Below, in pieces: positions 12,236-58,016 of a stretch of 64,000 nucleotides of DNA (position 1 is its first letter; the number at the start of each line of letters is the position of its first letter). The notes under the pieces were generated by a model. That model was not told the origin of the DNA. It saw only the letters and a list, made by a program, of their open reading frames with translations, and ran no database searches. The stretch spans positions 23,002,001-23,066,000 of the forward strand of contig OZ038526.1 in NCBI GenBank assembly GCA_964036665.1. Reading direction: 5' to 3'. The translations under genes and the position numbers were made by a program. Source of the DNA: Gordius sp. MW1. Its lineage: Eukaryota; Nematomorpha; Gordioida; Gordea; Gordiidae.

Positions 12236-12409
12236 TGAATTTTCAGAATTACAAAAACGAAGACTGGTTACTTATCATATAAGTTTTGTTTATATATGGT
12301 AAAGTTGCGTGATATTGGGGTGATACGCGTGATAGTGGAATGATACGCGTTAAGGTGAGAAGATACAAATTAGAATTTGAATATGACCGTGCTAATGCAG
12401 TCTATAACA
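12236..12409 (-). repeat. Gypsy LTR 1 (3' LTR of copy 1)
   Basis: On the plus strand it runs from TGAATTTTCAGAATTAC to CAGTCTATAACA, so on the coding strand it is TG...CA. It matches the LTRs at 17377-17559 and 21383-21631, with repeated GTGATACGCGTGATAGTGGA words. The outer flank AGTAT does not match the flank of LTR 3. Confidence 0.9.
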
Positions 12410-12424
12410 TCTCCTACCCCCTTA
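12410..12424 (-). promoter_or_regulatory. Polypurine tract of gypsy copy 1
   Basis: On the coding strand AAGGGGGTAGGAGA lies directly before the 3' LTR, the usual position of the plus-strand primer in LTR retrotransposons. The equivalent site in copy 2 is just after 17559. Confidence 0.7.
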
Positions 12425-15000
12425 ATTTATTCCATAACTTTCTACAGATTTTCGGATTCGTGTTGATCGCCGGACAGTTATTTCGGGTGAAGGTATAAAT
12501 GATTCCGGCGAGTCCGTAAGCTGGGGTATGGGTGAGAGTGGGGGTGTGATGGAAACTGGTATATTATCGCTGGCTTCATCATGTGGCAGATTAAGCTGTT
12601 GCGGAATGGTGGCGTCAAGTAAATCACTGGGTTCATTTTGTGGCAAATTAACCGGTATTGCGTTCGAAATGTCAGCCAATAGTTTTTCATTGTTCTGTTT
12701 GTCTGCGTTATCTAAATATTTCCTAATATGATCACTATGTCTCTTCGATAATTAGTGTTTCGATTTCGTCTCGGTCTCGAAAACAAAATCTCGTCCCGTC
12801 TCGGGAGCGATTAAGAAAATCTCGATCTCGTCTCGGTCTAGAAAAATCTCGGTCTCGTCTCGTCTCGACTTTTAAAAAAAAATATATTCGGAATAAAAAT
12901 TTCTCCTGTTTTATTAAAAATATAAATAAGTGTTCAAAAATCCAAATGGCAAATTTTATATTTTTCGAAAAACTTTAATACATAAACTTTTTAAAGATTT
13001 AGCGGGACACGACATCTCATTGACAATATAAAGATATGAATTAACTCATAAATATAACATTTTCTATAAAAAGTGCAGACTAAAAAAACTATAAATAAAT
13101 TTGAAATATAAAAAATTAAATTTTATTGTTCTAGCAAATTATAATATTTGTATTAAATTCACTGTGTCTGTCAACTATAAATGGACTTCGAAAATTATAA
13201 GTTCGCTTATAGTTGATTTAGTTGCATAATTGAGCAAAATGAGACCCTTTATTAACCTTTGCTAATGCTTCAAAGTAGACCTTAACATATTTAAGGCAAA
13301 TGTTTAAGTCCATTTATATAACCATCATTAATTTAGCCCATAGTGTTTATTGCATGTTTACTATAGCGCTATAAACCACAAAGTGCGTGACATTTAATGA
13401 TGTTAATATTATTTACAGAATTGATAACTAGTTGCACAAATTAAAACGTTGTAAAAAAACAATAAAAGCAGCATTATTATAGAATAAGAACATAAAATTT
13501 AAACTTTAAATTAATGAATACGTATTTAAATGTATGACAAAAATCAACCATACTTAGGTAAATGATTGCCAAATTTTAATTTTTTTTGCAAAAATATATA
13601 ATATTAATTACACTTGGGATTTTCTTTAATATCAAATATATTCCATACATATTGATTTACACTTAATACCTTAAATGTAAATTAAAATACACAATAATTT
13701 ACTAAAATTTAACGATCAATAAAAAGTCGAGATCTCGCCGAGAAAATCTCGTATCGTCTCGTCTCGACCTCAAAATTCTCGTCTCGATCTCGACTCCATT
13801 TTTCAAATTCTCGTCTCGTCTCGTCTCGGTTTTTCGAGACGAGACGAGACGAGACCGAGATTTTTATCGGTTTTCCGCATCACTATCCATAATGCACCAT
13901 TATCCATTTCGACCATGTACGATACTGAGCCTACGATTTTTGCTATTTTTCCTGGCACCCATAAGTTTTCATTAGTTGTAAAGGTTCTAACCCACACTTT
14001 ATCTCCAATTATAAATTTCCGTTTGATTGGTGCCAACTCATCTTTTTCAAGCCCTGAAACATGTGGTTTGAGTAAGTTTAACGGACCGATTGGTTGGATC
14101 TTGATAATAGTAGCAGGAGATAATCCACTTGTTGGGTGAATGATGTTCCTATAAAAAAAAACAGAAAATTATATAATATGTTGTTTTTAAAATTCCTAGT
14201 TTTGTTCAAAAACTCTTTAAATGTTCGGACAAAACGTTCAGCTTTTCCGTTGGATCGTGGATAAGGCTGGAGTATGCGTTACGAATATTTTTGTTTTGCA
14301 ATATTTTTTAAAATCTGCACTTGTAAATTGAGGTCCATTATCTGTAGCCAGGATATTAGGTACTCCGAATCTTGGGAAAATAGATTCGAGAGCGTTTATA
14401 GTGCTTGACGTCGTTATCGTTGTCATAGGAACATTTGCTGTAGGCGTCAATTAAAATTAGATAGTAATACCCATTAATTGGTCCACCAAAATTTGCATGT
14501 AACGTAGACAATGATTTTCCAGGGTTTTCCCATTTTTGAGTGGCTAATTCTGTTGTACCAGTGAACCATTGTTGACAATCCGTAAAATTTTGAACATAAC
14601 CTTCTATGTCTTTATCAATACCCGGATACCAGAGATGTTGTCGAGCCAAGATTTTTGAGCGACTCATGCCTGGGTGTCCTAAGTGGATTAGTTTCAAGAT
14701 GTTTTGCCTTAAACCTTGAGGAATAATAATTCGGTATCCCCAAAATATGCAGCCTTTTAAGGTGGTGAGTTCTTTTTGCCTTTGTTGGTAATTTATTAGC
14801 TCTGGAGTAACTTTCTTCGGCCAGCCATGGAGTACATAGTTATAGACTTGACCCAGGATAGGATCTTTACAGATATGACGCTCTATGTCGGCGGATGTAA
14901 TGGAGAAATGTTGAAATGGTTCTTCATAAATGGTGTATATATCTTCCCCTTCCCCTTGTTCTAATGTTTCTTCAGATTGTATCGGAAGTCTAGATAACAT
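12422..15000 (-). pseudogene. Gypsy integrase, copy 1, broken
   Basis: The zinc-binding region at 14356-15000 includes HLGHPGMSRSKILARQHLWY and NFTDCQQW, where the first Cys of the CxxC pair is Phe. The core contains DNGPQFTSADFKKYCKT (14238-14450). The C-terminal part at 13887-14036 includes FIIGDKVWVRTF and PGKIAKIVGSVSYMVEMDNG. The tail at 12422-12679 ends RRSTRIRKSVESYGIN, as in many gypsy integrases. A frameshift in the core and a 1.1-kb hAT (12753-13885) split it, so it is inactive. Confidence 0.85.
12753..13885. mobile_element. hAT-like element with TCTCG-rich ends, copy 1
   Basis: Ends TAGTGTTTCGATTTCG and CGGTTTTCCGCATCACTA (reverse TAGTGATGCGG) are flanked by TCGATAAT (12745-12752) and TCCATAAT (13886-13893), an 8-bp TSD with one mismatch. 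Both subterminal zones are dense in TCTCG/CGAGA words that can pair across the element. Copy 2 of the gypsy element lacks this insertion and preserves the empty site. The 0.9-kb core has no coding potential and is shared with 35546-36952 and 49163-50634. Confidence 0.85.
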
Positions 15001-15022
15001 ATCAGCCCGTGTATTTTCTTTG

Positions 15023-16200
15023 TCATTTTTGTATTTTATGGTATATTGGTGTAGTCAATAAGGTCCATTTCTGAAGTCTCGCTGAAACGGCCTGCGGTAC
15101 ATTTTTGTTAGGATTGAATAGTGATATTAAGGGTTTGTGATCTGTTATTAATGTAAAATAGAGGCCATATAAATATTCCTTAAATTTATTAAAAGCATAA
15201 ATGATGGCTAAAGCTTCTTTTTCAATCTGACTATAATTTCTTTCAGCAGCGTTAAGGGTGCGGGAAGTAAAAGCAATTGGGTGCTGATAACCTTTAATTT
15301 CACGTGCAAGTACCGCGCCGAGTCCTTCAGATGAAGCATCCGTCGAGAGTATTAACGGCAATTCAGGATCAAAATGTTTTAATATCGGGGCTTGGATAAT
15401 TGCTTTCTTAATGTTATTGAATGCATTTGCACAGTCTATAAACCAATTCCAAGCTACCGTTTTTCTTAGCAGTTTATAAAGTGGTTGTGCTCAAGTAGAT
15501 ATGTGGCCATGCCTAAAAAAGATTGTAATTTTTTTATTTTAGTTGGGGCTGGTGCTGTTAAAATTGCTTTCGTGTATTTGTCAGTTGTAAAAATTCCGTC
15601 TTTACTAATGGTATGTCCTAAGTATTCCACTTTTTTTCAGAAATTTACATTTTTCTAATTTTAGTTTTAAGCCTGCTTTTTCCAAGTTTTTAAAAACTTT
15701 TTCTAATTTTGTGGTCCTTTACGTTTTCGCTATAATAATGTCATCTAGGTAAACTACTATTCCCTTATCATTTCTAAATAATGAGTCCATAAATCTAAAA
15801 AATGGCTGGTGCCGAGGCTATCCCAAAAGGTAACTTAGTGTATTTAAAAAGTCCACGATGTGTATTAATGGCTAATAGGTTTTGAGAATTTTCGCTAACC
15901 TTTATCTGAAAGTAGGCGCCCTTAAGGTCCAAAACGGAAAAATATTTAAAACCGCCTAGTTGTGCAAATTTATCTTGAATACGTGGCAAAGGATATTTTT
16001 CAATTAAAAGGTGCTTATTTAAATCACGGAAGCCGCCGCAAATGCTGATGTTTCCATTATTTTTAATAACTGTTACAATGGGTGCAGCGTGTTCGGCATA
16101 CTTTATTGGTTTTAAGATACCTTCTTTAACTAACCTATCTCATTCTTCCTCAATTTTAGGTTTTAACATATAGGGAACAGGTCTAGGACGAAAAAAACGC
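15023..16200 (-). pseudogene. Gypsy reverse transcriptase and RNase H, copy 1, broken
   Basis: RT pieces on the minus strand are PRIQDKFAQLGGFKYFSVLD, then LKGAYFQIKV (15795-15989), and the active-site words VYLDDIIIA near 15735-15760. RNase H at 15023-15361 reads ILSTDASSEGLGAVL, IEKEALAIIYAFNKF and LITDHKPL. Several indels separate the pieces (for example near 15480 and 15790), so no intact polyprotein is possible. Confidence 0.88.
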
Positions 16201-16390
16201 GGTCATTTTTTAATTGAAGCGTTGCCTCATACCCGACTACCCCTTTCAGTTTATTTTTAAACAACAATGGATATTTTTTAATAATATTATTTGTTAAAAC
16301 ATCATCGTCAGTGTGGTTAATCTCATGCAGTTGGAAAGGCTTGTCTCGCTCCCAATCTCCAGCTAGTTGACGTAATGTGTGGGAAAATCC

Positions 16391-16639
16391 TTAACCACTT
16401 TCTCCCCAAATATTTTGCCCGTTCCCATCAACGACATCAAGAAAAAGTTGATAGGTTGCGTCCTGTTCTTGCACGATGACTTTCGCCGTTCCATTTATTG
16501 GTATAGTTGGACCATCGTAACCCTTTAGCACGGTATTGCAAGGTTGAGTTCTCAGGTGAGCCCCATTGTTAGAACTAATTAAGGTTACTGCTGAACCTGT
16601 GTCGATTTCAAAATTTAAGATATGGTCATTTACCTTCAT
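16391..16639 (-). pseudogene. Gypsy aspartic protease, copy 1
   Basis: The minus strand reads MKVNDHILNFEIDTGSAVTL, with the catalytic DTGS followed by ISSNNGAHL. It ends before the RT in a stop and sits between gag and RT as expected. The flap and second half (GTAKVIVQEQDATYQLFLDV) are recognisable. Confidence 0.8.
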
Positions 16640-16678
16640 ACCATAGAATGGGCAGGAAGCTTCCCCTAAATGAATAGT

Positions 16679-17080
16679 TCAATGACGAAACCTGCGGCCT
16701 ATCTTTCCGATATGACCTTGGGTATGGCACTTGTAACATGTCGCAAAACGAAATTTACAGTTGGACTGAAAATGGTTACCCCCACATGCGAAACATTTCA
16801 TATTTAGTACTGGGTGTTTGTTGGACACCGTATGAATGGGTTCCCAATGTTGCGTCAACATATGGCTTTGGAAACTCGCCCGTTCCATTGATCTCGCAAC
16901 ATCTAACGCCCCTTGCCAGGTCAGGTTATCCACAATCAAGAGTCGCTCCACAATCTTATTATTTTGTAAACCAGCCACGAAACAATCCCTTAGGTTCTCC
17001 TCGAGATTTGACCCAAAATTACAATTGATAGAAATACCTTTTAGTCTCGCCGCAAAGGAATCAATATTTTCACCCTCCAA
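16679..17080 (-). pseudogene. Gypsy gag nucleocapsid region, copy 1
   Basis: The minus strand shows capsid-like sequence (SFAARLKGISINCNF, LRDCFVAGLQNNKIVERLL) and then two zinc knuckles. The first is CFACGGNHFQSNC (CX2CX4HX4C). The second, CYKCHTQGHIGKIG, has lost its last Cys. The N-terminal part upstream to about 17300 is degraded. The nucleocapsid binds genomic RNA in the particle. Confidence 0.85.
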
Positions 17081-17359
17081 TTGTTGGCATTTGTGGAATT
17101 TGTATCTACGTTACAATAGCACTAAGCGAGGGGGCAAAAAAACTCTTTAGCTTTGTAACGATTTCATCGAATGATTTTTGTATCGGATCTGATGGTGAGA
17201 GGAGATTAATCAATAGTTCAAAATTTAATGTGCCAATCACAGTAAGGAATAGAGATTTCTTATCCCCCCCCCCCAAATACTTGGTGGTAATGGTTAAATT
17301 GGGATATCTACAGTTCTATGTTATTGGAAGGAGTATATTGGTGGAAATTAAGGGATTCT

Positions 17360-17376
17360 ATCGACCGCACCATTAT
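17360..17376 (-). promoter_or_regulatory. Primer-binding-site-like sequence of gypsy copy 1
   Basis: Two bases inside the 5' LTR on the coding strand is ATGGTGCGGTCGATAGA. The corresponding stretch of copy 2 reads ATGGCGCGGTCGCCATC. Position and the TGG start fit a tRNA primer site, but I do not assign the tRNA. Confidence 0.5.
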
Positions 17377-17559
17377 TGAATCTTCAGAATTACAAAAACG
17401 AAGACTGGTTACTTATCATATAAGTTTTGTATATATATGGTAAGGTTGCGTGATAGTGGGGTGATACGCGTGATAGTGGAATGATACGCGTTAAGGTGAG
17501 AAGATACAAATTAGAATTTGAATATGACCGTGCTATAACCTCTAATACAGTCTATAACA
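17377..17559 (-). repeat. Gypsy LTR 2, shared by both copies
   Basis: A 183-bp LTR, TG...CA on the coding strand. On the plus strand it serves as the right-hand (5') LTR of copy 1 and the left-hand (3') LTR of copy 2. A single LTR between two internal regions is the mark of unequal recombination between LTRs or of tandem integration. Confidence 0.9.
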
Positions 17560-17571
17560 TCTCCTAGCCCC

Positions 17572-18830
17572 TTAATTTATTCCATATCTTTCTACAGATT
17601 TTCGGATTCGTGTTGATCGCCGGACAGTTATTTCGGGTGAAGGCATAGGTGATTCCGGCGAGTCCGTAAGCTGGGGTAGGGGTGAGAGTGGGGGTGTGAT
17701 GGAAACTAGTATATTATCGCTGGCTTCATCATGTAGCAGCTGTTGCGGAATGGTGGCGTTAAGTAAATCACTGGGTTCGTTTTGTGGCAAATTAACCGGT
17801 ATTGTGTTCGAAATGTCAGCCCATAGTTTTTCATTGTTCTGTTTGTCTGCGTTATCTAAATACTTCCTAATATGATCACCATGTCTCTTCCATACTGCAC
17901 CATTATTCATTTCGACCATGTTCGATAGTGGGCCTACGATTTGCTATTTTTCCTGGTACCCATAAGTTTTCATTAGTTGTAAAAGTTCTAACCCACACTT
18001 TATCTCCAATTATAAATTTCCGTTTGATTGGTGCCAACTCATCTTTGTCAAGCCCTGAAACATTTGGTTTGAGCAAGTTTAACGGACCGATTGGTTGTAT
18101 CTTGATTAATAGATTAGCAGGAGTTAATCCAGTTGTTGGGTGAATGGTATTCCTATAAGAAAACAGAAAATTATATAATTTGTCGTTTTTAAAATCCTAG
18201 TTTTGTTCAAAAACTCTTTAAATATTCGGACAAAACTTTCAGCTTCTCCGTTGTATTGAGGATGATAAGGGCTGGAGTATGCGTTACGAATATTATTTGT
18301 TTTGCAGTATTTTTTGAAATCTGCACTTGTAAATTGAGGTCCATTATCTGTAGTTAGGATATTAGGTACTACCTTGAGAATTCGAGAGCGTTTATAGTGC
18401 TTGACGTCGTTATTGTTGTCATAGGAATCACCTCGGGCCATTTGCTGTAGGCGTCAATTAAAATTAGATAGTAATACCCATTAATTGGTCCACAAAAATC
18501 TGCATGTAACCTAGACCATGGTTTTCCAGGGTTTTTCCATTTTTGAGTTCTGTTGTACCAGTGAACCATTGTTGATAATCCGTACAATTTTGAACATAAC
18601 CTTCTATACCTTTATAAATACCCGGATACTAGAGATGTTGTCGAACCAAGATTTTTGAGCGACTCATACCTGGGTGTCCTAAGTGGATTAGTTTCAAGAT
18701 GTTTTGCCTTAAACCTTGAGGAATAATAATTGGGTATCCCCAAAATATGCAGCCCTTAAAGGTGGTGAGTTCCTTTTGCCGTTGTTGGTATATTATTAGC
18801 TCTGGAGCAACTTTCTTTGGCCAGCTATGG
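17572..18830 (-). pseudogene. Gypsy integrase, copy 2, broken
   Basis: The tail 17572-17919 reads MVEMNNGAVWKRHGDHIRKY and ends RRSTRIRKSVERYGIN; here the junction with the GPY-type C-terminal region is intact, unlike copy 1. The core at 18124-18441 shows DNGPQFTSADFKKYCKTNNI. The piece 18369-18587 shows LHADFCGPINGYYYLILIDA with the first catalytic Asp. The zinc region reads NCTDYQQ, where the second Cys is lost, the opposite lesion to copy 1. Confidence 0.85.
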
Positions 18831-18999
18831 AGTACATAGTTATAAACTTGTCCCAGGATAGGATCTTTACTAGTATGACGCTCTATGTCGGCGGATGTAA
18901 TAAGAAAATGTTGAAATGGTTCTTCATAAATGGTGTATTTAATGTTTCTTCGGATTGTATCGGAATTCTAGATAACATATCAGCCTGTGTATTTTCTTT

Positions 19000-20650
19000 G
19001 CCATTTTTGTATTTTATGGTATATTGATAAGGTGTAGTCAATAAGGTCCATTTCTGAAGTCTCGCTGAAACGGCCTGTGGTACATTTTTTAGGATTGAAT
19101 AGTGATATTAAGGGTTTGTGATCTGTTATTAATGTAAAATAGAGGCCATATAAATATTCCTTAAATTTATTAAAAGCATAAATGATGGCTAAAGCTTCTT
19201 ATTCAATATGAGTAAAATTTCTTTCAGCAGCGTTAAGGGTGGGGGAAGTAAAAGCATATGGGTGCTGATAACCTTTAATTTCATGTGCAAGTACCGCGCC
19301 GAGCCCCTCAGATGAGGCATCCGTCGAGAGTACTAACGGCAATTCAGGATCAAAATGTTTTAATATCGGGGCTTGGATAATTGCTTTCTTAATGTTATTG
19401 AATGCATTTGCACAGTCTATAAACCAATTCCAAGGTTTTTCTTAGCAGTTTATAAAGTGGTTGTGCTAAAGTAGAGAAGTTTTTTTGAATTATACGAAGT
19501 ATGTGGCCATGCCTATAAAAGATTGTAATTCTTTTATTTTAGTTGGGGCTTGTGCTGTTAAAATTGCTTTCGTGTTTTTGTCAGTTGTAAAAATTACGTC
19601 TTTACTAATGGTATGTCCTAAGTATTCCACTTTCTTTTCCATAAATTTACATTTTTCTAATTTTAGTTTTAAGTCTGTTTTTTCCAATTGTTTAAAAACT
19701 TTTTCTAATTTTTGATTGTGGTCCTCTACTGTTTTACCCGCTATAATAATGTCATCTAGGTAAACTATTATTCCCTTATCATTTCTAAATAATGAGTCCA
19801 TAAATCTAAAAAATGGCTGGTGCCGAGGCTATCCCAAAAGGTAACTTAGTGTATTTAAAAAGTCCACGATGTGTATTAATGGCTAATAGGTTTTGAGAAT
19901 TTTCGCTAACCTTTATCTGAAAGTAGGCGCCCTTAAGGTCCAAAACGGAAAAATATTTAAAACCGCCTAGTTGTGCAAATTTATCTTGAATACGTGGCAA
20001 AGGATATTTTTCAATTAAAAGGTGCTTATTTAAATCACGGAAGCCGCCGCAAATGCTGATGTTTCCATTATTTTTAATAACTGTTACAATAGGTGCAGCG
20101 TGTTCGGCATACTTTATTGGTTTTAAGATACTTTCTTTAACTAACCTATCTAATTCTTCCTCAATTTTAGGTTTTAACATATAGGGAATAGGTCTAGGAC
20201 GAAAAAAACGCGGTCATTTTTTAATTTAAGCGTTGCCTCATACCCGACTACCCCTTTCAGTTTATTTTCAAACAACAATGGATATTTTTTAATAATATTA
20301 TTTGTTAAAACATCATCGTCAGTGTGGTTCAATCTCATGCAGTTGGATAGGCTTGTTTCGCTCCCAATCTCCAGCTAGTTGACGTAATATGTGTGGGAAA
20401 ATCGTTAACCAGTCTCTCCCCAAAATATTTTGCCCGTTCCCATCAACGACGTAAAGAAAAAGTTAATAGTTTGCGTCCTGTTCTTGCACGATGAATTTCG
20501 CCATTTCTTTTATTGGTAAAGTTGAACCATCGTTACCCTACCTCAAGGTTGAGTTTTCAGGTGAGCCCCATTGTTAGAATTAATTAAGGTTACTGCTGAA
20601 CCTGTGTCGATTTCAAATATTAAGTTATGGTCATTTACTTTCAAACCATA
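19000..20650 (-). pseudogene. Gypsy protease, reverse transcriptase and RNase H, copy 2, broken
   Basis: RT at 19806-20180 runs from EEELDRLVKESILKPIKY through FRDLNKHLLIEKYPLPRIQD to FKYTKLPFGIASAPAIF. It continues at 19490-19801 with GIIVYLDDIIIAGKTVEDHN, the YLDD active site, and VEYLGHTISKD. A single frame break separates the two. RNase H at 19.0-19.35 kb and a protease at about 20.4-20.65 kb (DTGS region) are more decayed. Confidence 0.85.
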
Positions 20651-20685
20651 GAATGGGCGGGAAGCTTCTCCTAAATGAAAATAGT

Positions 20686-21090
20686 TCAATGACGAAACCT
20701 GTTTGGAGCGGCATATCTTTCCGATTTGACCTTGGGTATGGTACTTGTAACATGTTGCAAAACGAAATTTACAGTTGGACCGAAATGGTTACCCCCACAT
20801 GCGAAACATTTTATATTTGGTACTGGGTGTTTGTTGGTCACCGTATGAATGGGTTCCCAATGTTGCGTCAACATATGGCTTTGGAAACTCGCACGTTCCA
20901 TTGATCTCGCAACATCTAACGCCCCTTGCCAGGTCAGGTTATCTACAATCAATAGTCGCTCCACAATCTTATTATTTTGTAAACCAGCCACGAAACGATC
21001 CCTTAGGTTCTCCTCGAGAGTTGCAAAATTACAATTGATAGAAATACCTTTTAGTCTCGCCACAAAGGAATCAATATTTTCACCCTCCAA
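20686..21090 (-). pseudogene. Gypsy gag nucleocapsid region, copy 2
   Basis: Reads SFVARLKGISINCNFATLEE, FVAGLQNNKIVERLLIVDNL and CFACGGNHFGPTVNF. The first zinc knuckle is frameshifted after the His, and the second is lost. It is closely similar to copy 1 (16679-17080), with independent lesions. Confidence 0.85.
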
Positions 21091-21382
21091 TTGTAAGCGT
21101 TTGTGGAATTTGTATCTATGTACAATAGCACTAAGAGAGGGGGCAAAAAAACTCTTTAGCGTTGTAACGATTTCATCGAAGATTTTTGTATCGGATCTGA
21201 TGGTGAGAGGAGATTAATTAATAGTTCATAATTTTGTGTGCCAATCACAGTAAGGAATAGAGATTTCTTATCCCCCCCCCAATTACTTGGTGGTAATGGT
21301 TAAATTGGGATATATAAAGTTCTATGTTATCGGAAGGGGTATATGGGTGGAAATTAAGGGAAGATGGCGACCGCGCCATTAT

Positions 21383-21631
21383 TGAATCTTCAGAATTACA
21401 AAAACGATGACTGGTTACTGATCATATAAGTTTTGTATATATATATGGTACGGTGATAGTGAGGTGATAAGCGTGATAGTGGGGTGATACGCGTGATAGT
21501 GGAATGATACGCGTTAAGGTGAGATGATACAAATTAGAATTTGAATATGACCGTGCTATAACCTCTAGTGCAGTCTACAACATCTGAATTTGAAGATGAC
21601 CGTGCTATAACCTCTTGTGCAGTCTATAACA
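21383..21631 (-). repeat. Gypsy LTR 3 (5' LTR of copy 2), with internal duplication
   Basis: Begins TGAATCTTCAGAATTAC like the others. It carries an extra GTGATAGTGAGGTGATAAGC unit, and the last about 49 bp (GAATTTGA.ATGACCGTGC to AGTCTA.AACA) are duplicated (ending at 21582 and again at 21631). The outer flank ATGTC does not match the flank of LTR 1. Confidence 0.85.
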
Positions 21632-21984
21632 ATGTCTAAGTTGTTTGCAAAACTGTCTATATAATTCATGCAAATTATGATGACTAGTGGTGTTAAATTG
21701 CTAATTAGCTTCAACTCCACGCGCAAGCACGGACACTGAGCTGCTTAATATGCTAGTTAGCACAATGAGTACTCGCTTTTTGGTGCACCAGGCAGAACAG
21801 TTGCATGTAAAAATGCTCGAGTGGCGAGTCAAAGCAGCAAAATCTGTTAAAGCATTGAGCAGATAGCCCGAGCAGTAAACTCGAGCAGATAGCAAATTTA
21901 ATTGCTTTTGCTATAATTTAGTATCTTACAATATTTGCCCCTGAACACCCATCTATATTTGCATCTAATCAAGTTCTGCTTGGA
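21632..21984. other. No gene; short CGAGCAGATAG-type repeats
   Basis: Words such as CGAGCAGATAG and GAGCAGATAGC recur at about 21850-21895. No coding or family match is visible. Confidence 0.3.
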
Positions 21985-35545: not shown

Positions 35546-36952
35546 TAGTGTTTCGATCTCGTCTCGTCTCGGTCTAGAAAACAAAATCTCGTCTCGGGAG
35601 CGATTATGAAAATCTCGATCTCGTCTCGTCTTGGTCTAAAAAAATCTCGATCTCGTCTCGTCTCGACTTTTCAAAAAAAATATATACGGAATAAAAATTT
35701 TCCTGTTCTATTAAAAATATAAAATAAGTGTTAAAAAATCTAAATTGCAAACTTTTTATTTTTTGAAAAACTTTAATACACATTTTTAACGATTTAGCGG
35801 GACACGACATCTCATTGACAAAATAAAGATATGAATTAATTCATAAAGATAACATTTTCTATGGAAAGTGCAGACTCAAACAACTATAAATAAATTTTAA
35901 GTATAGAAAATTAAATTTTATTTTTCTAGCAAATTATATCATTTATATCAAATTAACTGTGTTTTTCAACTAAAAATAGACTTAAAAAATTATAAGTTCT
36001 CTAATAGTTGACTTAGTTGCATAATTGAGCAAATTGAAATCCTTCTTTAAAACAAAGTGCACGTATTCAATTCTATGACAAAAATCATTATAATCAAATT
36101 GGTATTCTAATTAATTATCTTCCAATCTATAACTTTGCCATTTAATATTAATTTATCTAGTACAGTATAGGTTCGTGTATTTATTTAATATTGCACAATT
36201 ATAGAAATTATAGTAATTAAAATGCACCTGCCCACTCAGCTTATAATGTGAAAAGTAATGCATATGACAAAACTATGTATTCACATAATATGTTATAAAG
36301 GTTCAAAAATTTGGGAGGTATATTATTAGATGAATCATAAATCTTCTAGAAAACTCATAATTTAAGATTCAATTTATTACGGTGTCATTAAATATATTAT
36401 ACTTATGAAATCGTTAGGCTGGTGCTCAAAAATCTCCAGCCACCTTGGCCTAACTTGTTTAATTATTCAAACTGATTGACCACCAATTTATAATAACTGC
36501 ATCGTGCTGAATGAGTAACTGCGAAATTTAAATATGCTTTTAGTAGTATTTACTATTGAATCAGAACTCATATTAAGCCTAACATTTTGTAATATTCAAT
36601 AATGCTATGGATACAAATATGTGATAAATATATTATAAAATTATTCACATACGCCAAGAATCAACCATGCTTGGGTAAATGATTGCCAAATTTTAAATTT
36701 TTTGCAAAAACAATAAAATTTATTACACTTAGAAATTTTTTAAATATCAAATATATTCCATACATATTGATCTACACTTAATACCTTAAATGTAAATCAT
36801 GAAAATTAAAATACACAATAATTTAATAAAATCAACGATCAATAACAAGTCAAGATCTCGCCGAAAAAATCTCGTATCGTCTCGTCTCGACCTAAAAATC
36901 TCGTCTCGATCTCAACTCCATTTTTCGAATTTCTCGGTTTTTCGCATCATTA
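35546..36952. mobile_element. hAT-like element with TCTCG-rich ends, copy 2
   Basis: Begins TAGTGTTTCGATCTCG and ends TTTTTCGCATCATTA. The flanks TTAATCGT (35538-35545) and TATATCGT (36953-36960) agree at 6 of 8 bases. It shares the core (GATTTAGCGGGACACGACAT, TCTCATTGAC) with copies at 12753 and 49163. No coding capacity was seen. Confidence 0.8.
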
Positions 36953-43079: not shown

Positions 43080-44690
43080 AAGGGGTTTTATCTTATAGGG
43101 GAGACCGCGGCTAAATCGCTATAATAGGTTAAATTAGGTTTTAATAAAATTAAAAAAAAAGTTTGTAATATTTTTTTATTGGAATACATTTTAGAGTCTA
43201 TTTCTACTATAGGAAAAACATTGAAAAAATTGTTTATAGCTTTTTCATAAATTGAGTTTAAAAAATTGAAAATTTTAGAATTTTAAAAGTGCCCGGGGCT
43301 TGGTGTAGCCCTGATCAGGGGATAGATCAACCCTGACGTTTTCACTTCTTATTATTGTATGTTAACTCAAATGAATAAAAAGATTGCTCCATTATAAAAA
43401 ACATAGAAGATGCAAATGTAATATGATTATATTTGATGTAATACAAATAAAAAAGGGTCAAGATGACAATCTGACATAAGTAAACTTAAAGGACAGATTC
43501 TGCAAAAGGAAAAAACATTTAGTCGTTTTTTAAAGTATAATCATAGTCTATTTCTATTCCAAATTACACTAAGTTGGATTATAAACAAAATTTTTATTTT
43601 TAAATCTTGTCATTTGTAAGACATAATGAAAAATGGCTAACACTAGCCCCGATCCCTATTTTTATAAACAATTAATAATTCAACCTGTTATATTGCGAAT
43701 AAAAATTTGATCATTAGACGGTTTTTATATAAAAAATATCCTTTTATAAGATAAATTTAATTAGTCCAAACCTTTCCTAACTCACAGGAACCCACAGGTC
43801 TAAGCTCCACTGATGGTAAAAGACCCGACGGCCTAACAATCATCCTGTGGGCTCGTGGCTTAAACGCTTTTTGAGACTACACTGCGGAGGATATATTTGC
43901 AAATCTAACACCTCTGCCGACCTCATCTCTTCTAATGAGAGAAAGAAAGTGGAAAAATAAATATACCTCAGAAATATCATCTTTGTCCCAGTAGGCCACG
44001 ACCCTCGGTAATTTGGGTCCCGAGGGCAGCCAAATCCTCAAACAAATATTAAAATATATTACCTCCATTACACACGACACGATCCCAAAGAATTCTTTTA
44101 CATTATGCAACATGGAAATTGTAAAATCCAATACAATCTCAATTCATGGCTCGATGCCAGCTCATTAATTTAATATATAGCATCTAACATGCACAGTTAT
44201 TTGGAAATAAACCTCTACCGCGCCAAAAAAATATACAGCCAAAAAAAATTTATGAGAAAAACACAAAATTTTGTCAAGGATACTAATAGCCCCAAGGAAT
44301 CGTTTTTCATCTATAAAATCTTAAATTTTATTTTTTCTAAACAATATTTTTTTTACTTATACCTTAGGAAAAAATTACATATGGTTTAAATTCTAATTAT
44401 ACATCATTATTATTTTAAAAAATAATTACAAAGATACTAGTAACCTCAGGCCACGACTAGCCCCTTCCCTATGGGAAAAATCAGAATTTTAAAATTTTTA
44501 CATCATTTTGGACTAAATTCGTGGAAAAACTATTAATTTCTTTTCTCAATATTTTTTCCTATAGTAGAAATAGTGCTTAAAAAGTTGATGACAAAAATAT
44601 TCAATAAATACCCAATTTATTTACACGAAATGATTTTTGATGGTTATTATAGCGGCAGTTTCCCGGATAGGTAAATTTAACTATTAATTT
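43080..44690. mobile_element. Element with ~240-bp terminal inverted repeats
   Basis: 43080-43320 and 44440-44690 are diverged reverse complements. They share CTATTTCTACTATAGGAAAAA, TTTAAAATT.T.AAAATT and CCGC...CTATAATA in mirrored order. The interior contains a retroelement tail fragment (43790-44165). No transposase or TSD was recognised. Confidence 0.55.
43790..44165 (+). pseudogene. Non-LTR element C-terminal tail fragment, copy 2
   Basis: With frameshifts the plus strand reads LSSTDGKRPDGLTIILWARG, then FWDYTAEDIFANLTPLPTSS, then KNKYTSEIS and NLGPEGSQIL, ending VKSNTISIHGSMPAH. It belongs to the same family as 40200-40735 and is nested in the TIR element 43080-44690. Confidence 0.6.
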
Positions 44691-45320
44691 TTGTTGCCTA
44701 ATTATTAATCTGATAAAATAACTTTATAAATAGTTACTTTATTTCCTATTTCAGCATTTTTTTACAACTTAATCATAATTTTCATCGGATTAAAGTACAA
44801 TTTATCCAGCTAGTTATTGTAGACTTCCGAAAAATGCGAGGCGAAAGTGTTTGAAACTTATAAAAATAAATTAATAATTAAATTTGTTAGGTTGAAAGTA
44901 TCAGGATAGTTGATTATAAGGAAATTTTTAAAATCTTGAACAAATGTTATAATAAAATGGATACAAACGTTTGTGCAGTTCATAGTAGAATATGTAATAA
45001 AAATTGTTTCGTATTTTACCCCTACCCCCCCCCCCCCCCCCCATTAAATGTAGTTATATTTTACATGCTTGTGCTTCCCCCCCCCCCCTCCGTATCTTAA
45101 AGTTACAAAACAACATTCCTTATTTTCTCCCTCTCTATTTTTCTCTCTTTTTCTCAGTAATTATCGCAATAACAAGATACATTTTAAACGAAATATGAGT
45201 ACAAATACAAGTACAAAGGATGTTTTAATTAATTTCGGAGAATTTAACGCAAAGATATTTGGTATACGAACATGTTATGTTGTTTTTCATTTGACCTTTT
45301 GTACTCAAAGTCTACGCCCT
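44691..45320. other. Region upstream of the secreted-protein gene, with poly-C tracts
   Basis: C runs of about 19 and 10 lie near 45024-45043 and 45078-45088, followed by a pyrimidine stretch. A short ATG frame at 45195 runs only to 45335 and has no codon signal; I do not call it. Confidence 0.35.
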
Positions 45321-45326
45321 TCTCAC

Positions 45327-45359
45327 TATATATAGAGCCCACTAATTTGAAAAGATTCA
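45327..45359 (+). promoter_or_regulatory. TATA core promoter of the secreted-protein gene
   Basis: TATATATA at 45327-45334 is followed about 32 bp later by an initiator-like TTCATT (A at 45359). The first ATG is at 45379, which would give a 5' UTR of about 20 nt. Spacing fits a TATA-Inr promoter. Confidence 0.6.
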
Positions 45360-45378
45360 TTTATAATTTTTAAATATC

Positions 45379-48319
45379 ATGAATTATATTCAAATATTCT
45401 TACTCGTTGGAGGATTCGCATGCTTCTATGCCCAAGGTGTACTTGATTTTTATAATATTAATCTAATTTTTTTTCGTTTAATATCTAAAACCATACACAA
45501 ATATGTGTGTGTGAACTTTTCAATTATTTTTGCTGGTTTAACCAATAAAAATAGTTTTGATTTCATTTATTATTTAAAATGAATAAATATAATATATCTT
45601 TCTAATTTGTAGCTTTTGCATAATATTTAACTTCTCTAATCACTCATGAATCATAAATTTGAAAATTTAAATCTTTTATTATGGGACAGAAATAATAATA
45701 TGTTTTTTTATAATTGGCATTAAAGTAATAATTTGATTTAAATTTTATGTTCATGAGTTGAAATTTCTCTTTGCTCAATTGTTCTCTAACAAAGTTCAAC
45801 AATAAAAATCTACCGGCAAACTGTTTGCATTTTGGTAGAGTTTTTCGCGGTTTACGAATATGCTTTTACTTTTTAACTATACCTCAAGTATTTGAAATCT
45901 TTGCTGTCAAAGTTGATAAAAAACGCAATATTTGCGTTTTTTAGACGTCAACAACAAATTAACAGGTACAATTTTAATTTAAAAAATTTAATTTATAATT
46001 AAAGGGGATAAATTCCTGTTACCTTAATAAACATCAAATATTTGAAACATTTTAAAAACAAACCTTTGTTCATACTAGTTAAAAGATTATGTAGCGGGCT
46101 TTTATCAGGCCATACGTATATCTATGTCTGACCTGATCCCGTTAGGTTATATTATGGCCCGTCCCGTTGTTTTTTTTAAAGCAGAAGCCTGTCCTAGTCC
46201 GGCTCGCGGGCCGAGCACTGTGGGTCTCTTGAGGATAAGAAAAACAACACACACTTAATTCCTTAATTCCTAGTGTTGGCTACCTTAAGTCTGGGGCAAT
46301 TTGGCAATGTAATAAGATGGAGATAAGTTAGTTTTGAATATATATCAAAATTTAATAGATCGAGGGTAAAAATTTTTTTCCCTCTCCCCGTTTTTATAAA
46401 TCAAATTTATTAAACTGAATTTTACCAATTAATTTGTACTTTGTTATCCCTGTTTTAAGCAACTTTCACAGCAAATATTTTAAAAATTAAAATTATATTG
46501 TGTTCATCGTAAAACCTTTCTAGGATCTGAATACAGTTTGCCTGTTGATTTTATAAGTCCCTTTGTTCATTAGTGTAATTTGTTGATAAATCCATATTCC
46601 ATTAAAAATCAATTTACTCTTTGTAATTGTGTACCTTTATGTTAATTATAAATAACTTAGAGGCTCATACGTAGATATGGCTTAAATGTAACCCAAATGA
46701 AGAAAGTCATAAATTACAAAATAAGAAAAATAGAGTGATAATATCTAATATTAAATGTTTCGTATACACCTTAAGAATAATATAATGATTGAGTAATTTT
46801 TGATTTTACAATTAATATAAATACGTGTTCAAATTATTAGATTAAATATAGTGATTATTTTTATAAGACAAAACATTTAATTTTTAAAAATATTCTAAAA
46901 ATACTTATTTAACGTCCATTTATGTCTTTCGCAGAACCCCTTGATGCTGAGGGTAAGTTATCAGGTTTAACTTCACATATAGTTTTAAAAAGAGAAGAGT
47001 GAAGCAATTATTAATTTTGTCGACGAAGTTCACGCTAATATAATTTGGAACTTATTTCCAGAAAATGAAAAATCCTCTATCACAATATACATGGATGGTC
47101 CTTATAACGGGCTTGTTGAAATGTATACCTTAGAGGTTATATTAATATAACTTAATTTTTTTCCAAAAATTATACTTTAAAAATTACTAAACGATTATTT
47201 ATTAAAATGTTTCGATATTAACTTAAACTAGGTTACTGGGAGGAATAACTCGATAACCTATAAGTTTGCTTATAAGGCTACGTATATTTTGACCATTTTC
47301 ATATCTCATCTCAATGGTGTATCCTTTAAAAAAATAAGGCAAAACATTGTTCAAGGTAAAATAAATATTTAATGTTCGCGTACAAAAAAGTTATTTCTAG
47401 CTAATGGAAAATTGTTGAAAATTAATTTTGTTAAAGTAAATTGTCTTGGAGTATCATATGATTGGCCAGATCTTCCTAATGTTAAATCGCATCAGCTTAC
47501 ATGGTATTCGGGAAACAAAGTTCCATATTATGATACTACCGTGAGATTTGATTTATTAACCTAGACTATATTTTGCTAATTTTTTCTATACAGACATCCG
47601 CCGGCCAAACTAATATGAGCTTAAGTTTTGAACTGGTTGGATTTTATTACCTTGTAATGGAATTTAAATTCTACTATACGTCCAAAACGTTAAGCTTGAG
47701 AACTAGAGTTTCCATAGGTTAATTTATATACTTAATACATGGTTACCAAGATGTATAATCTATTACAATATAGTTTTGCTACCATTCATAAATTATGTTA
47801 CTTTCCTATATCTCATATATATATATATATAACCTGCTAAAAAAACATAAAATTTTATTTTTCTACGAACACGAAAAAATGTTTTCAATTGGAGCTTTAT
47901 TTATTAAAACCTTATAAGAACTTAATTTATAAAGAATTATGTAAAGATTAAACAACCAAGACGTTAATAAATATGTTAATATTACATTGTGTATATTAGG
48001 TATTGAGACATGCCCCATTATAGAACGCAATCTTAATAATGACGGAAGGGTATTAAACTTTAGCTGTAACGCAGTTGAGACGAAAGAGGGCTGTGTCCAA
48101 AATATTATTATGACATATCAGGATAAAGGACGATTTTATCAATTTTTCTACAATATTGAGAAAAAATGCTTTGTAGATATGGAAACCTATATATTGGATT
48201 ATGGCAATTTTACTGAAATAACTGTAGTCAGAAAAAATGGATGTATCAATTTTGAACAAACTTTTAATTTTTCCAATACTGATATCGATGCAGTGATGAA
48301 TGAAATAACTTCAAAATAA
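45379..48319 (+). CDS. Novel secreted protein, seven exons, two tandem modules
   Basis: I do not recognise this gene. The exons read are 45379-45436, 46935-46952, 47062-47135, 47232-47355, 47401-47540, 47594-47717 and 48000-48319 (TAA). All are GT..AG with phases 1,1,0,1,0,1, and sum to 858 bp (285 residues). Residues 1-19 (MNYIQIFLLVGGFACFYAQ) form a signal peptide. Exons 3+4 and 5+6 each make a module bounded by phase-1 introns and split by a phase-0 intron; exons 4 and 6 are both 124 bp and end in a beta-strand-like stretch (ILTIFISHLNG; LVMEFKFYYTS). This suggests an Ig- or PKD-like sandwich duplicated in tandem. The last exon has five Cys and several N-glycosylation sequons (NFS, NFT). 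No transmembrane segment follows, so secretion is likely. It resembles a lineage-specific extracellular protein; the function is unknown. Confidence 0.85.
45788..46590. mobile_element. TIR element in intron 1 of the secreted-protein gene
   Basis: 45788-45850 (CCGGCAAACTGTTTGCA, GGTAGAGTTTTTCGCGG) and the reverse complement of 46500-46585 (CAGGCAAACTGTATTCA) pair over about 70 bp. A further copy of one end is at 31290-31560. The interior holds a GC-rich hAT-like fragment (46095-46240). It lies wholly in the intron 45437-46934 and accounts for more than half of it. Confidence 0.6.
46095..46240. repeat. GC-rich hAT-like fragment nested in the TIR element
   Basis: GCGGGCTTTTATCAGGCC, GGCCCGTCCCG and GGCTCGCGGGCCGAGCACTG, then GTGGGTCTCTTGAG, follow the style of the hAT ends at 33622-34366. 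Confidence 0.45.
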
Positions 48320-48544
48320 TTGTTTTTACATTCATTCCATTGTTATATTTCTTAAAACCCCTTAATATGCACATGATACTGATTGACCTGGTATTGCGAT
48401 CTTGTATTTTTTAAAAAAATTTTATTTGAACTAATAATTGTATTTACAATTTCTTAAAAATTCATTCTTCTATTTTGGTATTGTTATCTTATCGTATATC
48501 CTCTTAATACTGATTCATCTATTTTTGCAAAACAACAAATTATT

Positions 48545-48945
48545 TTCTAAGTATTTTATTCAAATTACTAAGTATTTTTAGCTCATTGCTATATTCATTT
48601 GCTAAGTATTTAATTCGTTTGCGAAATTTTTTAGAATAATTCTAAGTTTTAAATTCAAATGCTAAGTATTTTATTCATTTGCTAAGTATTCAAATAAATG
48701 TTGTCAAGTCTTTTATTGTTTTGCTAAGTATTTTGCTTGTTTACTAAGTATTTTATTAATTTGCTAAATGATTAAATTATATGCTAAGTATATAAATATA
48801 TTATGCTAGGTATTTAAATTATTGCCAAGTGTTTAAATAAATTTTGCCAAGTTTTTAAATTATTTGCTAAGTACTTAAATAAATTATTCAAAGTATTTAA
48901 TTATATGCCAGGTTTATAAATAAATTATGCTAGGTATTCAAAAGA
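48545..48945. repeat. Minisatellite of ~22-bp units, GCTAAGTATTTAA type
   Basis: About sixteen imperfect copies of TTTGCTAAGTATTTAATT. Units drift from CTAAGTATTTTATTCAT at the left to GCTAGGTATTTAAAT and GCCAAGTTTTTAAAT at the right. It begins about 225 bp after the stop of the secreted-protein gene. Confidence 0.8.
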
Positions 48946-49162
48946 TTTTATAAATACAATAAATCTCAACAAAAATGCTATAATGTACAACAATAAAAAT
49001 AAAACAGAATTTTGTTGTACCTGCCAAAATAAGTCAATCAATAAATCAAGATACAACAATCAGAATAGGTAACTGGGCCTCCTGAGGATTTTAAAGCAAA
49101 ATTTTAAGGCCTTGTCCATATCCTTCCTTGAAGAAAGCCATATGTGGCAAAAGGGTCATTGT

Positions 49163-50634
49163 TGATGCGGAAAAACCGAGAAAAATCTCGGTCTCGTCTC
49201 GAAAAGCCGAGACGAGACGAGATGAGAATTTGAAAAATGGAGTCGAGATCAAGACGAGAATTTTGATGTCGAGACGAGACGATACGAGATTTTTTCGGCG
49301 AGATCTCGACTTTTTATTGATCATTAGATTTTAGTAAATTATTGTGCTTTCTGATTTGCAGGATTTACATTTAAGGTATTAAGTGTAAATCAATATATAA
49401 TGTATATTTGATATTAAAAGAATTCCGAAGTGTTGTAAATATATTTTTTCAAAGAATTTAAAATTTGGCAATCATCACCTAAGTATGGTTGACTTTTAGG
49501 GTTTGTGAATAATTGTATAATATATTTATCACATATTTATATCCACAGCATTATTAAATATTACAAAGTTTAAGCTTAGAATGAGTTTTGATAGAATAGT
49601 AAATATTACTAAAGCATATTTGAATTTCGCAGTTACTAATCCTGCATGATGCAGTTATTATAAATTTGAACCTTAATAAGACATTATGTGAATACATAGT
49701 TTTGTCATATATATTACTTTTCACATTACAAGCTGGGTTGGCAGGTGCATTCAAATTTACTATAATTATTATAATTGTGTAAAAAATAAAAACACGAACC
49801 TATATTGCATTCGAAATAACTATTTAAGAGCAAAATTTAGTTAAGATTGGAAGGTAATTATTTGGAATATAAATTTAATTTAATGATTTTTGTCACAAAT
49901 TTAAATACGTGCACTTTTATTTAAAGTTTAAAACCTTATGTTCTTAATCCTATATAATGCTGCTTTTATTGTTGTTTTTATAACGTATTAATATGTACAA
50001 CTAGTTCACTTTGTTGTTTATAAAGCTATAGTGAACATGCAATATACACTATGGGCTATAATGAATGATGGTAATATCAATGGACTTAAACGTTGCCTTA
50101 AATATGTTATGGTCTACTTTGAAGCTTTAGCCAGGGTTAATAACGGGCCATAATTTGCTCAATTGTGCAACTAAGTCAACTATAAGCGAACTTATAATTT
50201 TCTCAGTCTATTTAGAGTTGACAAACACAGTGAATTTGATACAAATGTTATAGTTTGCCAGAACAATAAAATTTAATTTTCTATACTTCAAATTTATTTT
50301 TAGTTTGCACTTTCCATAGAAATATTTTCTTTATGAATTCTATAATATCTTTATGTTGTAAATGGGATGTCGTGTCCCGCTAAATCTTTAAGAAGTTTTT
50401 GTATTAAAGTTTTGAAAAAATATAAAAGTTTGCCATTTGGATTTTTTAAAAACTTATTTAATATTTTTAATAAAACGAGAAAGTTTTTTTTAAAAAGTCG
50501 AGACTAGACGAGAATTCTCGTCGAGACGAGACCGAGATTTTTCTAGACCGAGACGAGACGAGATCGAGATTTTTATAATTGTTCCCGAGACGAGACGAGA
50601 TTTTATACGAGACCGAGACGAGATTGCAACACTA
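49163..50634. mobile_element. hAT-like element with TCTCG-rich ends, copy 3 (inverted)
   Basis: Begins TGATGCGGAAAAACCGAG and ends GAGATTGCAACACTA, so it is reversed relative to copies 1 and 2. The flanks GTCATTGT and GCAATTGC agree at 5 of 8. The core word ATGTCGTGTCCCGCTAAATC is shared in reverse. It contains no gene. Confidence 0.75.
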
Positions 50635-50642
50635 GCAATTGC

Positions 50643-51799
50643 CCCTCATTTCACAATAATTACATTTGCAAGCATATAATAGGATTAACCTTGTTACATC
50701 CCTAAAAGGATATGATTTAAGAATTTGAAGGAAGGGGAATCATCAGGAATCTATTGAAATAATTGAGGGAAGATACTGGGAGATATTGGGGCGATCATAA
50801 GGCATTTAAATTAAGATGAATCTACCGCTTTAAAGGCTGTCCTCCCCAAAGGGAGTAGTTTTAAAGAAGGGAGAATCAGGAGCTACATTTTTATTATACT
50901 AACTGAGAAAAAAATATAATAATTATGAATGAATAAAAATCACACAACTCTCGATACCATATGTTGTGTATAAAAATCAATGATGCGTATTGATGTTGAT
51001 TAATAGGGGAAGAAATAACAAATACGTATAAGCGCGTGGGGGGGGGGGGGGGGTAAAGTAACACACACGTACTGGAAATTAAATAGAAAGTTAAATGTAT
51101 CACATAGTACTATGTTTTTATTAAAATAGGCGGCGAGATCAAAAAACTCTCACAGTCAACGAACTTGCAGTATAAATAAAGGAAGGGTGGGGAATCGAAT
51201 AAGTATGTCTGAGATAAGCAGTTTTACAAGGAATTGGGGGGAAATGCTTAACTTCTATACAATTAAAAATACGCGTACATCCGTATGTATATACGACAGG
51301 GGGGGGTGGTAGAATATGAGTATCTCCGGATGAATATGAGTATCTCCGGATACGACAAGCCTCAACACTAAAAATATGCAAACCCCTTATGGAAGCTAAA
51401 ATTGTCACAATAGAAAAGAAAAGAAGACAGGGAATACCTTCCAAAGCAAAAAAAACTTTGATAGTCCAATAAATATATGTATAAAGCACCCGTTATTATA
51501 ATTATATTTTGTTGTTGAATAAAATCTCCATCAATTATCCTATTAGCTATTTAAATTATTTTATATGTGAGGTTATTATAGAACATGAAGGGTATTTCTT
51601 CACTTACAAATAAATAATTATAATTTTTTTATTCAAATCTAATATAATTTTTTTTATATTATAACGATATAAAATTGAAATATTATAATTTTCAACTATA
51701 AATTTTGGTAGTTCATTAAAATAATTCCCATTAAAACTAAACTTCAAATTTTCAACTTTTTTGTTTCATAAATAAAACTTTGAATCAAAAGAAAACCTA
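50643..51799. other. Intergenic DNA with G-runs and a 20-bp tandem duplication
   Basis: A run of 18 or more G lies at about 51037-51054 and a shorter one at 51299-51306. GAATATGAGTATCTCCGGAT is repeated head-to-tail at about 51313-51352. No gene was seen. Confidence 0.45.
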
Positions 51800-56075: not shown

Positions 56076-58016
56076 ATGAGCAAAAAGCAGAAAGAAACAT
56101 TGGAAATTTTTTTTGATCTAAATAATCGCGGACCAGGAACTTCAAATATTAGTGAAGGTTCCGATGATGATACAGCGAAAAATGAAACGGAAAAAACCAA
56201 TAGTCCTAAAACTAAAGGTATAAAATCAAGTAACAATAGAATTAGAAAATACTATCGTGATTATATTAAATATGGGTTTGTAAGCATAGAAGTTCGAGGA
56301 ACTACAAAACCACAATGTGTTATATGTGGTGTAGTTCTCTCTAATGAATCAATGAAACCTAATAAATTGTGGAGGCATTTAAATCTTAACCATGATAAAT
56401 ATAAAAATAAAAAGGAAGATTTTTTTATAAGAAAAAGAGATGAATTAAAAAATCAAAAGACGCTCATAAATGTGACAACTACTACCAATAAAAATTTATT
56501 AAAAGCTTCATTTATTGCAGCTTTGTACATTGCAAAAGCAAAAAAACCATTTACTATAGCCGAAGAATTATTAAAACCTGCCATGTTTAATATTTGTAAA
56601 GAGCTATTTGAACCCTTTGTGTCAAACAAAATTAAAGAAATACCTTTGTCAAATGATGCAATTTATAATAGAACTTTATTAATAGCTAATGATCTTCAGG
56701 AACAGTTAACTGGCTATATTAAAAATTCTCCTTGGTTCTCATTACAAATAGATGAATCTACAGATGTTTCTAACAGGAGCATTTGCTTAGGATACATTCG
56801 ATTTATTGATTTTATAAAAATGGATATATCTGAAGAATTTCTCTTTTGCATAGACTTAGAAACAGATACAACAAGTGAAAATATATTTAACAAAATAGAT
56901 TCCTTTCTGAATACTAATGGCTTACTCTGGAAAAACTGTGTTGGAATTTGCACAGATGGTGCTGCCTCTATGACTGGCTGTTATAAGGGCATTACATCAA
57001 GAATAAAACGTATTGCACATGCAAACATAACAACTACTCATTGTTTTATTCATAGGGAACAATTAGCCTCCAAGGAAATGAGTGAAGAATTGAATGAAGT
57101 TTTGATAATTTCAGTAAAGATTATAAATTTCATAAAAGGAAGTTCACTAAAGTCAAGATTATTTTCAATTTTTTGTGAAGAAGTTGGCGCAGATAATAGT
57201 TCTCTTTTATTTCACACAGAAGTGAGATGGCTATCACGAGGAAAAATCTTAACTCGTTTATTTGAATTGAGACTGGAAGTTGAACTTTTTTTAAATGATA
57301 AAAACTCCAGCCTATCAAGCTATTTTGATGACAATAATTGGGTCGCTAAATTGTCATATCTAGCGGATATTTTTACAATTCTAAATCAGTTGAATATATC
57401 TATGCAAGGACCTAAATCTGATATTTTTACTATGCATAACAAAATTGAGGCTATGAAAATGAAATTACAAAGATGGATTCAAAGAATAGACTCAAATATA
57501 TATGAAATGTTTCCATTCTATTCACAACTAATCTCTGATTCAAAATTTCAATTCGAGAAAGAAAATGTAAATTACTTGATTAAATGTCATATTTTAAAAT
57601 TAATTGATAAATTTGAAAAATATTTCCCTAATGATGAAGGTCACATTACAAAACTCTGGATTCAAGATCCATACAACAATTATAAAAATACCAATTTATC
57701 ATCAGATGATGAAGATTCATTATTAGAATTAATAAATGATTGTAATTTAAAATCTTTGTTTAAAACTAAAAGTTTGGCGCAAGTTTGGATACAAATTCGT
57801 GCAGAATATCCTCCATTATTTTCAGCAGCAATGCAAAATTTGCTGCCTTTCGCTAGTACATATTTGTGTGAAAAAGGTTTCTCAACTATGGTGGATATAA
57901 AAACTAAAAAACGCAATCGATTGCGACTAGATTCCTGCATGAGGATAGCATTACAATCAATTGAACCAAGAATTAACAAATTGGTTGATGATGTTCAGCA
58001 GCAGAAATCTCATTAA
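56076..58016 (+). CDS. hAT transposase, ZBED5-like, uninterrupted
   Basis: Cuts and pastes its own element. 646 residues, in line with ZBED5/FAM200-type hAT proteins. A BED zinc finger lies at about residues 60-115 (CVIC at 81-84, HLNLNH at 101-106). The RNase H-like core starts with FSLQIDESTD (D226 candidate catalytic Asp), then CTDGAASMTG (D294) and HCFIHREQLA (CxxH at 323-326). The C-terminal hATC domain at about 580-635 contains LPFASTYLCEKGFSTM with the third acidic residue E599. Both Asp, the CxxH and the Glu are present and there is no stop. The start is the first ATG after the TIR-proximal region. It has no introns. The retained frame implies recent activity, or host co-option. Confidence 0.92.
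   Translation: MSKKQKETLEIFFDLNNRGPGTSNISEGSDDDTAKNETEKTNSPKTKGIKSSNNRIRKYYRDYIKYGFVSIEVRGTTKPQCVICGVVLSNESMKPNKLWRHLNLNHDKYKNKKEDFFIRKRDELKNQKTLINVTTTTNKNLLKASFIAALYIAKAKKPFTIAEELLKPAMFNICKELFEPFVSNKIKEIPLSNDAIYNRTLLIANDLQEQLTGYIKNSPWFSLQIDESTDVSNRSICLGYIRFIDFIKMDISEEFLFCIDLETDTTSENIFNKIDSFLNTNGLLWKNCVGICTDGAASMTGCYKGITSRIKRIAHANITTTHCFIHREQLASKEMSEELNEVLIISVKIINFIKGSSLKSRLFSIFCEEVGADNSSLLFHTEVRWLSRGKILTRLFELRLEVELFLNDKNSSLSSYFDDNNWVAKLSYLADIFTILNQLNISMQGPKSDIFTMHNKIEAMKMKLQRWIQRIDSNIYEMFPFYSQLISDSKFQFEKENVNYLIKCHILKLIDKFEKYFPNDEGHITKLWIQDPYNNYKNTNLSSDDEDSLLELINDCNLKSLFKTKSLAQVWIQIRAEYPPLFSAAMQNLLPFASTYLCEKGFSTMVDIKTKKRNRLRLDSCMRIALQSIEPRINKLVDDVQQQKSH

Follow-up and report, generated by a model that had tools for sequence, protein, structure and literature searches.

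Coding exons that diverge faster than introns in a putative secreted-protein gene family of a horsehair worm

Positions 45379-48319 of a 64,000-nucleotide stretch of DNA (the window, C8:23002001-23066000) can be read on the plus strand as a seven-exon gene for a protein resembling no family known to the first-pass annotation. This raises the question whether such a gene exists at all and, if it does, what has shaped its sequence and what its product might do. The assembly, 211.8 Mb in 12 contigs, was searched with both DNA and protein for copies of the locus, and exons were compared with the non-coding DNA of the same copies.

Gene model and copies in the genome

In the window copy (W), the seven exons sum to 858 bp and encode 285 codons and a stop, the only one in the frame. 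All six introns are bounded by GT..AG and the phases are consistent throughout. Exon 1 (45379-45436, 58 bp) encodes residues 1-19 and the first base of codon 20, and it is separated by intron 1 (45437-46934, 1498 bp, GT..AG) from the 18-bp microexon 2 (46935-46952). Exon 3 (47062-47135, 74 bp), exon 4 (47232-47355, 124 bp), exon 5 (47401-47540, 140 bp) and exon 6 (47594-47717, 124 bp) follow, and exon 7 (48000-48319, 320 bp including the stop codon) encodes the C-terminal domain. A conserved upstream region (45107-45378, plus strand) comprises the promoter and a presumed short 5' UTR and contains TATATATA at 45327-45334, with the ATG 52 bp downstream. The N terminus, MNYIQIFLLVGGFACFYAQ, is hydrophobic and signal-peptide-like, a judgement made by eye only on MNYIQIFLLVGGFACFYA. 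The protein has five N-X-S/T sequons (residues 55, 145, 199, 249 and 269) and seven cysteines (residues 15, 106, 184, 202, 211, 236 and 261).

The splice junctions of W were deduced from the sequence and from a paralogue, L020. On its own, the length of the open run is modest evidence against chance, as AT-rich DNA allows gene models to be drawn by eye: the longest stop-free plus-strand run of 124 codons was matched in 13 of 2000 simulations (first-order Markov, 3 kb). The decisive evidence that W is more than a chance model is L020, a second intact copy at C8:0.81 Mb, 22.2 Mb from W on the same contig. It has all seven exons, all six GT..AG introns and one frame of 288 amino acids. Net exon length differences between W and L020 are 0, +12, 0, +6, -12, 0 and +3, all multiples of three (exon 2 is 30 bp in L020), whereas introns 2-5 differ by +1, -26, 0 and +1. 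W is thus very probably a real gene. The exon model of the first-pass annotation, with its 858 bp, splice borders, phases and stop, was reproduced exactly, and the signal-like start, the glycosylation sites and the cysteine-rich last exon that it described are present. The paralogues that it proposed to look for in related genomes were found in this one, as the intact L020 and further copies.

A second near copy, L019, lies at C8:21.98 Mb and is decayed, having lost the frame-consistent acceptor of exon 3; exon 1 is open in both L019 and L020. Similarity between W and L019 spans 43711-49156 of the window, the 5' limit being the end of the fetched stretch, and resumes at 51367-51566. Because it extends so far beyond the gene, the shared block is best read as a segmental duplication and not a transposition. 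An AT-rich tandem repeat with 20/40-bp periods lies 3' of the gene (48537-48942, plus strand) and is common to L019 and L020. In the 3' region from 48530, W differs from L019 at only 37 of 609 sites and from L020 at only 30 of 431.

The upstream region together with exon 1 was located in at least ten places, nine on C8 and one on C5, which form three groups; there is a short piece on C1 besides. Of the ten, W and L020 alone appear intact, which may mean that the family is shrinking. In one further copy (L030) exon 1 contains a stop and similarity to W ends inside intron 1; in another (L031) exon 1 is open, with no convincing later exon within the fetched stretch. A distant copy at C8:32.67 Mb belongs to an inverted pair with broken frames at 32.67 and 32.68 Mb. 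In this pair (L021 7057-9501 and L032 1-7782; C8:32.671-32.681 Mb) the broken copies face each other, and one seems to be nested in the last intron of its partner, whose exon 7 is found about 8 kb past exon 6. The third upstream-region group comprises L033 (C8:20.737 Mb), L034 (C8:20.758 Mb) and L035 (C5:10.770 Mb), which are 87-90% identical to L034. These three have neither the ATG nor the TATA box of the W gene, and no convincing downstream exon was found in the fetched stretches. They may be relics, or they may represent a different gene's promoter.

Divergence of exons and non-coding DNA

The introns, the flanks and the fourfold sites of the same gene copies were taken as the yardstick for acceleration. 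Over all introns, W differs from L019 at 186 of 1969 sites (0.094) and from L020 at 195 of 1944 (0.100). Intron 1 alone gives 131/1430 and 141/1418, respectively, and the last 300 bp upstream 25/300 and 26/290. Exons 4-7 differ at 133 of 700 sites (0.190) in the comparison with L019 and at 164 of 681 (0.241) in that with L020, exons 4, 5 and 6 each being accelerated. Exon 3 is the most conserved coding exon relative to L020 and shows no acceleration (5/74). Exon 1 differs at 8 of 58 sites from L020, a value not below that of the introns, and at 1 of 58 from L019.

Nonsynonymous differences in exons 4-7 amount to 168.7/544.2 sites for W-L020, 127.2/534.0 for W-L019 and 135.0/524.8 for L019-L020, that is, 24-31%. 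They exceed intron differences in all three pairs (one-sided Fisher tests): 37/277 in introns 2-5 for W-L020 (p 9e-9), 27/355 in introns 4-6 for W-L019 (p 6e-11) and 6/88 in introns 4-5 for L019-L020 (p 2e-5). Against fourfold sites, where counts are small (4/31, 4/42 and 7/45 in the same order of pairs), the p values are 0.02, 0.02 and 0.09. When differences were assigned to branches, the exons outran introns plus flanks on the W branch (61/675 vs 55/1203, p 1e-4) and on the L020 branch (96/675 vs 83/1203, p 3e-7), with the weakest acceleration on the branch of the decayed L019 (41/675 vs 47/1203, p 0.02). The replacement rate is consequently above the neutral rate as measured by introns and flanks. 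The NG86 dN/dS ratio of 1.32 for W-L020 is not significant alone, with a bootstrap interval of 0.94-2.00 and 5.3% of replicates below 1. At the protein level, W and L020 differ at 138 of 279 aligned residues, 55 of them by charge class, and all seven cysteines of W are retained in L020.

Judged from these alignments, amino acids of the protein are replaced at two to three times the rate at which the surrounding non-coding DNA changes. As replacements have accumulated faster than non-coding changes separately on the branches of both intact copies, the mature protein appears, with introns and fourfold sites as the yardstick, to be under diversifying selection. The divergence pattern looks like the kind left by an evolutionary arms race. 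That W is a pseudogene or a chance open frame is very improbable. Most copies in the genome have decayed, as such a reading would have it, but two copies 22 Mb apart both retain seven exons, splice sites and frame, and decay would give divergence like that of introns, not divergence twice as fast.

The excess in exons could also arise without selection, through gene conversion or block replacement from paralogues, or through conversion that restrains the introns. The NG86 synonymous divergence of W-L020 (0.25) is indeed higher than the intron divergence, and the near copies all lie on one contig. However, where codons agree in their first two bases, divergence at fourfold sites is like that of introns (4/31 vs 37/277), so the surplus of NG86 synonymous divergence may be a product of path counting in codons hit more than once. 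From exon 4 onwards, replacements show no significant clustering either (104 runs vs 113.6 expected, with 11% of shuffles at or below the observed number), and genome searches found no additional intact near copy that could have served as donor. Conversion is accordingly a quite improbable source of the pattern.

Database searches and predicted structure of the last exon

No Pfam-A family was found for full-length W or L020 at E values up to 10. When exon 7 alone was searched for four copies, TolB_like appeared in one of the four (E 0.0061, 16.4 bits against a cut-off of 29.2) and DUF6733 likewise in one (E 0.029); neither full length nor exon 7 alone reached the curated cut-off of any Pfam-A family. 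NCBIfam gave a single chance-level row (E 0.051, one of two proteins). The full protein matched no PDB sequence and had no match at E <= 1 in the protein database, in which nuclear proteins from other hairworms may be missing. Within the scope of these searches, the family would be undescribed and lineage-restricted.

The same searches bear on the suggestion that the gene encodes a transposable-element or virus protein, for which remains of transposons in the window might speak. Pfam detected no transposase, integrase or reverse transcriptase domain in W or L020, and patterns from the N terminus gave no confirmed match in viral contigs. The copies are few, are segmental duplicates and share extensive flanks, and the gene is interrupted by six introns, which makes this origin scarcely credible. 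A transposon-encoded protein was considered and rejected on the missing domains and the few, segmental copies. Elsewhere in the window, a 646-codon open frame at 56076-58016 has hAT-like matches (DUF4371 and Dimer_Tnp_hAT, both below the curated cut-offs) and is possibly a recent transposon. Remains of a Gypsy-like retrotransposon occupy 12300-21700 on the minus strand, with an integrase zinc-binding domain at 14356-15000 and other pieces recognised by eye, and CGAGACGAGACGAGATTTTTC-type repeats occur in several places and in both orientations (13743-13835, 35553-35665 and 50522-50623).

The first-pass annotation had assigned the protein to no known family, and no convincing relative emerged from Pfam, NCBIfam, PDB sequences or the protein database. 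A clear match to a transposon protein, which it had named as evidence against its reading, was looked for in Pfam, and no transposon family was found. Its proposal of a lineage-specific extracellular effector or adhesion-type protein holds in part: an undescribed, secreted and lineage-restricted product agrees with the present results and an effector role has become more likely, whereas the adhesion type has no support of its own.

Five cysteines of exon 7 are invariant across four copies. The exon-7 models consist of a six-stranded beta meander followed by a C-terminal helix, with strands and helices in matching order for W and L020 (mean pLDDT 84 and 83). The exon-7 product is thus predicted to be a cysteine-stabilised six-strand meander with a C-terminal helix. 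The Foldseek matches listed for the exon-7 fold included several lipocalins, at E values of 0.25 or worse and TMq of about 0.22-0.27. Lipocalins are eight-stranded barrels with characteristic lipocalin sequence motifs; the W and L020 models, which cover exon 7 alone, have six strands. The p32/gC1qR (C1QBP) fold is counted among the closest known systems; membership would require the fold to match across the entire domain, clearly above background.

Probable role and comparison with known systems

The 14,798-bp contig C12 is the mitochondrial genome. Its COX1 is 95% identical to that of Gordius sp. VVA-2019, 87% to Gordionus alpestris, 81% to Parachordodes pustulosus and 80% to Gordionus wolterstorffii, and next among the 120 matches listed are arthropods at up to 67%. 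Perfect inverted repeats of 108, 95, 53 and 47 nt lie in coding DNA within C12:1-10000 (examples at 3264-3499, 6700-6889 and 2727-2833). In the accessible part of PMC10380579, such repeats in mitochondrial coding DNA are described as exclusive to Nematomorpha, horsehair worms as parasites of arthropods, and molecular data on the phylum as scarce. The COX1 identity of 95% and the inverted repeats together identify the animal as a horsehair worm near Gordius. Of five contig ends read, three have TTAGGG-type telomere repeats; at the other two, the right ends of C8 (L056) and C5 (L058), repeats of the GGACAACGGAC and AAGTTAAAGTT types are found in their place.

With a parasitic horsehair worm as the source and diversifying selection apparently acting on the mature protein, an effector becomes a more likely reading. 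We consider it probable that the gene is functional and that its secreted product acts extracellularly, the arthropod host interface being the most likely site; the effector role itself is one we infer from sequence. The product would enter the secretory pathway, become disulphide-bonded and N-glycosylated, and act as a soluble extracellular protein. Outside the worm it would meet a fast-changing partner, most likely an arthropod haemolymph or tissue protein encountered in the parasitic stage. Segmental duplication would provide gene copies in which selection then swaps residues, cysteines and fold being retained and the signal sequence changing less, and copies out of use would decay.

The main alternative, unlikely but to be weighed seriously, is a reproductive protein of seminal fluid, sperm coat or egg coat whose rapid evolution would be driven by sexual conflict or by gamete recognition. 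Secretion, glycosylation, cysteines and diversification are equally typical of such proteins, and no observation here links the gene to the parasitic stage. Nothing direct speaks against it, but parasitism of arthropods, as described in the accessible part of PMC10380579, makes the host interface the likeliest source of the selection. A defence or immune recognition protein tracking the worm's own pathogens would share the secreted, duplicated and diversifying signature; such a role is improbable, with no known immune domain found in Pfam at E values up to 10. More tentatively than the host-interface reading itself, we suggest that this may be a secreted family confined to hairworms, containing a small disulphide-stabilised beta-meander domain without a clear relative among solved structures, engaged in an arms race with arthropod hosts and belonging to the molecular means with which Nematomorpha inhabit and steer them.

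Hairworms are textbook host manipulators. Older proteomic work is said to exist on infected crickets and grasshoppers, and horizontal gene transfer has reportedly been studied in Chordodes. A literature search found nothing combining Nematomorpha, positive selection and secreted proteins, and the titles among the matches listed for hairworm effectors, secretomes or excretory products included no hairworm secretome. A gene flagged by the genome itself as diversifying could be taken directly into tests of expression, localisation and host binding, and the comparison of exons with introns could be extended genome-wide to list all such genes.

In schistosome micro-exon genes most internal exons are tiny and multiples of three. 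Like W, whose product is putatively secreted, these genes encode secreted, fast-evolving parasite proteins with short exons, but they belong to a different phylum and no sequence relation was found. W has a single microexon of 18 bp, and none of its other six exons, at 58-320 bp, has a length divisible by three; with internal exons of 18, 74, 124, 140 and 124 bp, it was not assigned to this class. Fast-evolving secreted families are well known from venoms and parasites. In manner of evolution W resembles snake venom-type and other host-interface multigene families, in which, as in W, non-coding DNA is conserved and the mature part accelerated, in a small duplicated family that keeps its cysteines. 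Accelerated evolution of venom genes is the topic of PMC6062510 and PMC2711939, as far as their accessible parts indicate. No sequence or fold relation to these families was found, and only two intact copies of the present family were seen. Within the searches' reach the family is new, and the kind of gene that it represents, a fast-evolving secreted family, is already known.
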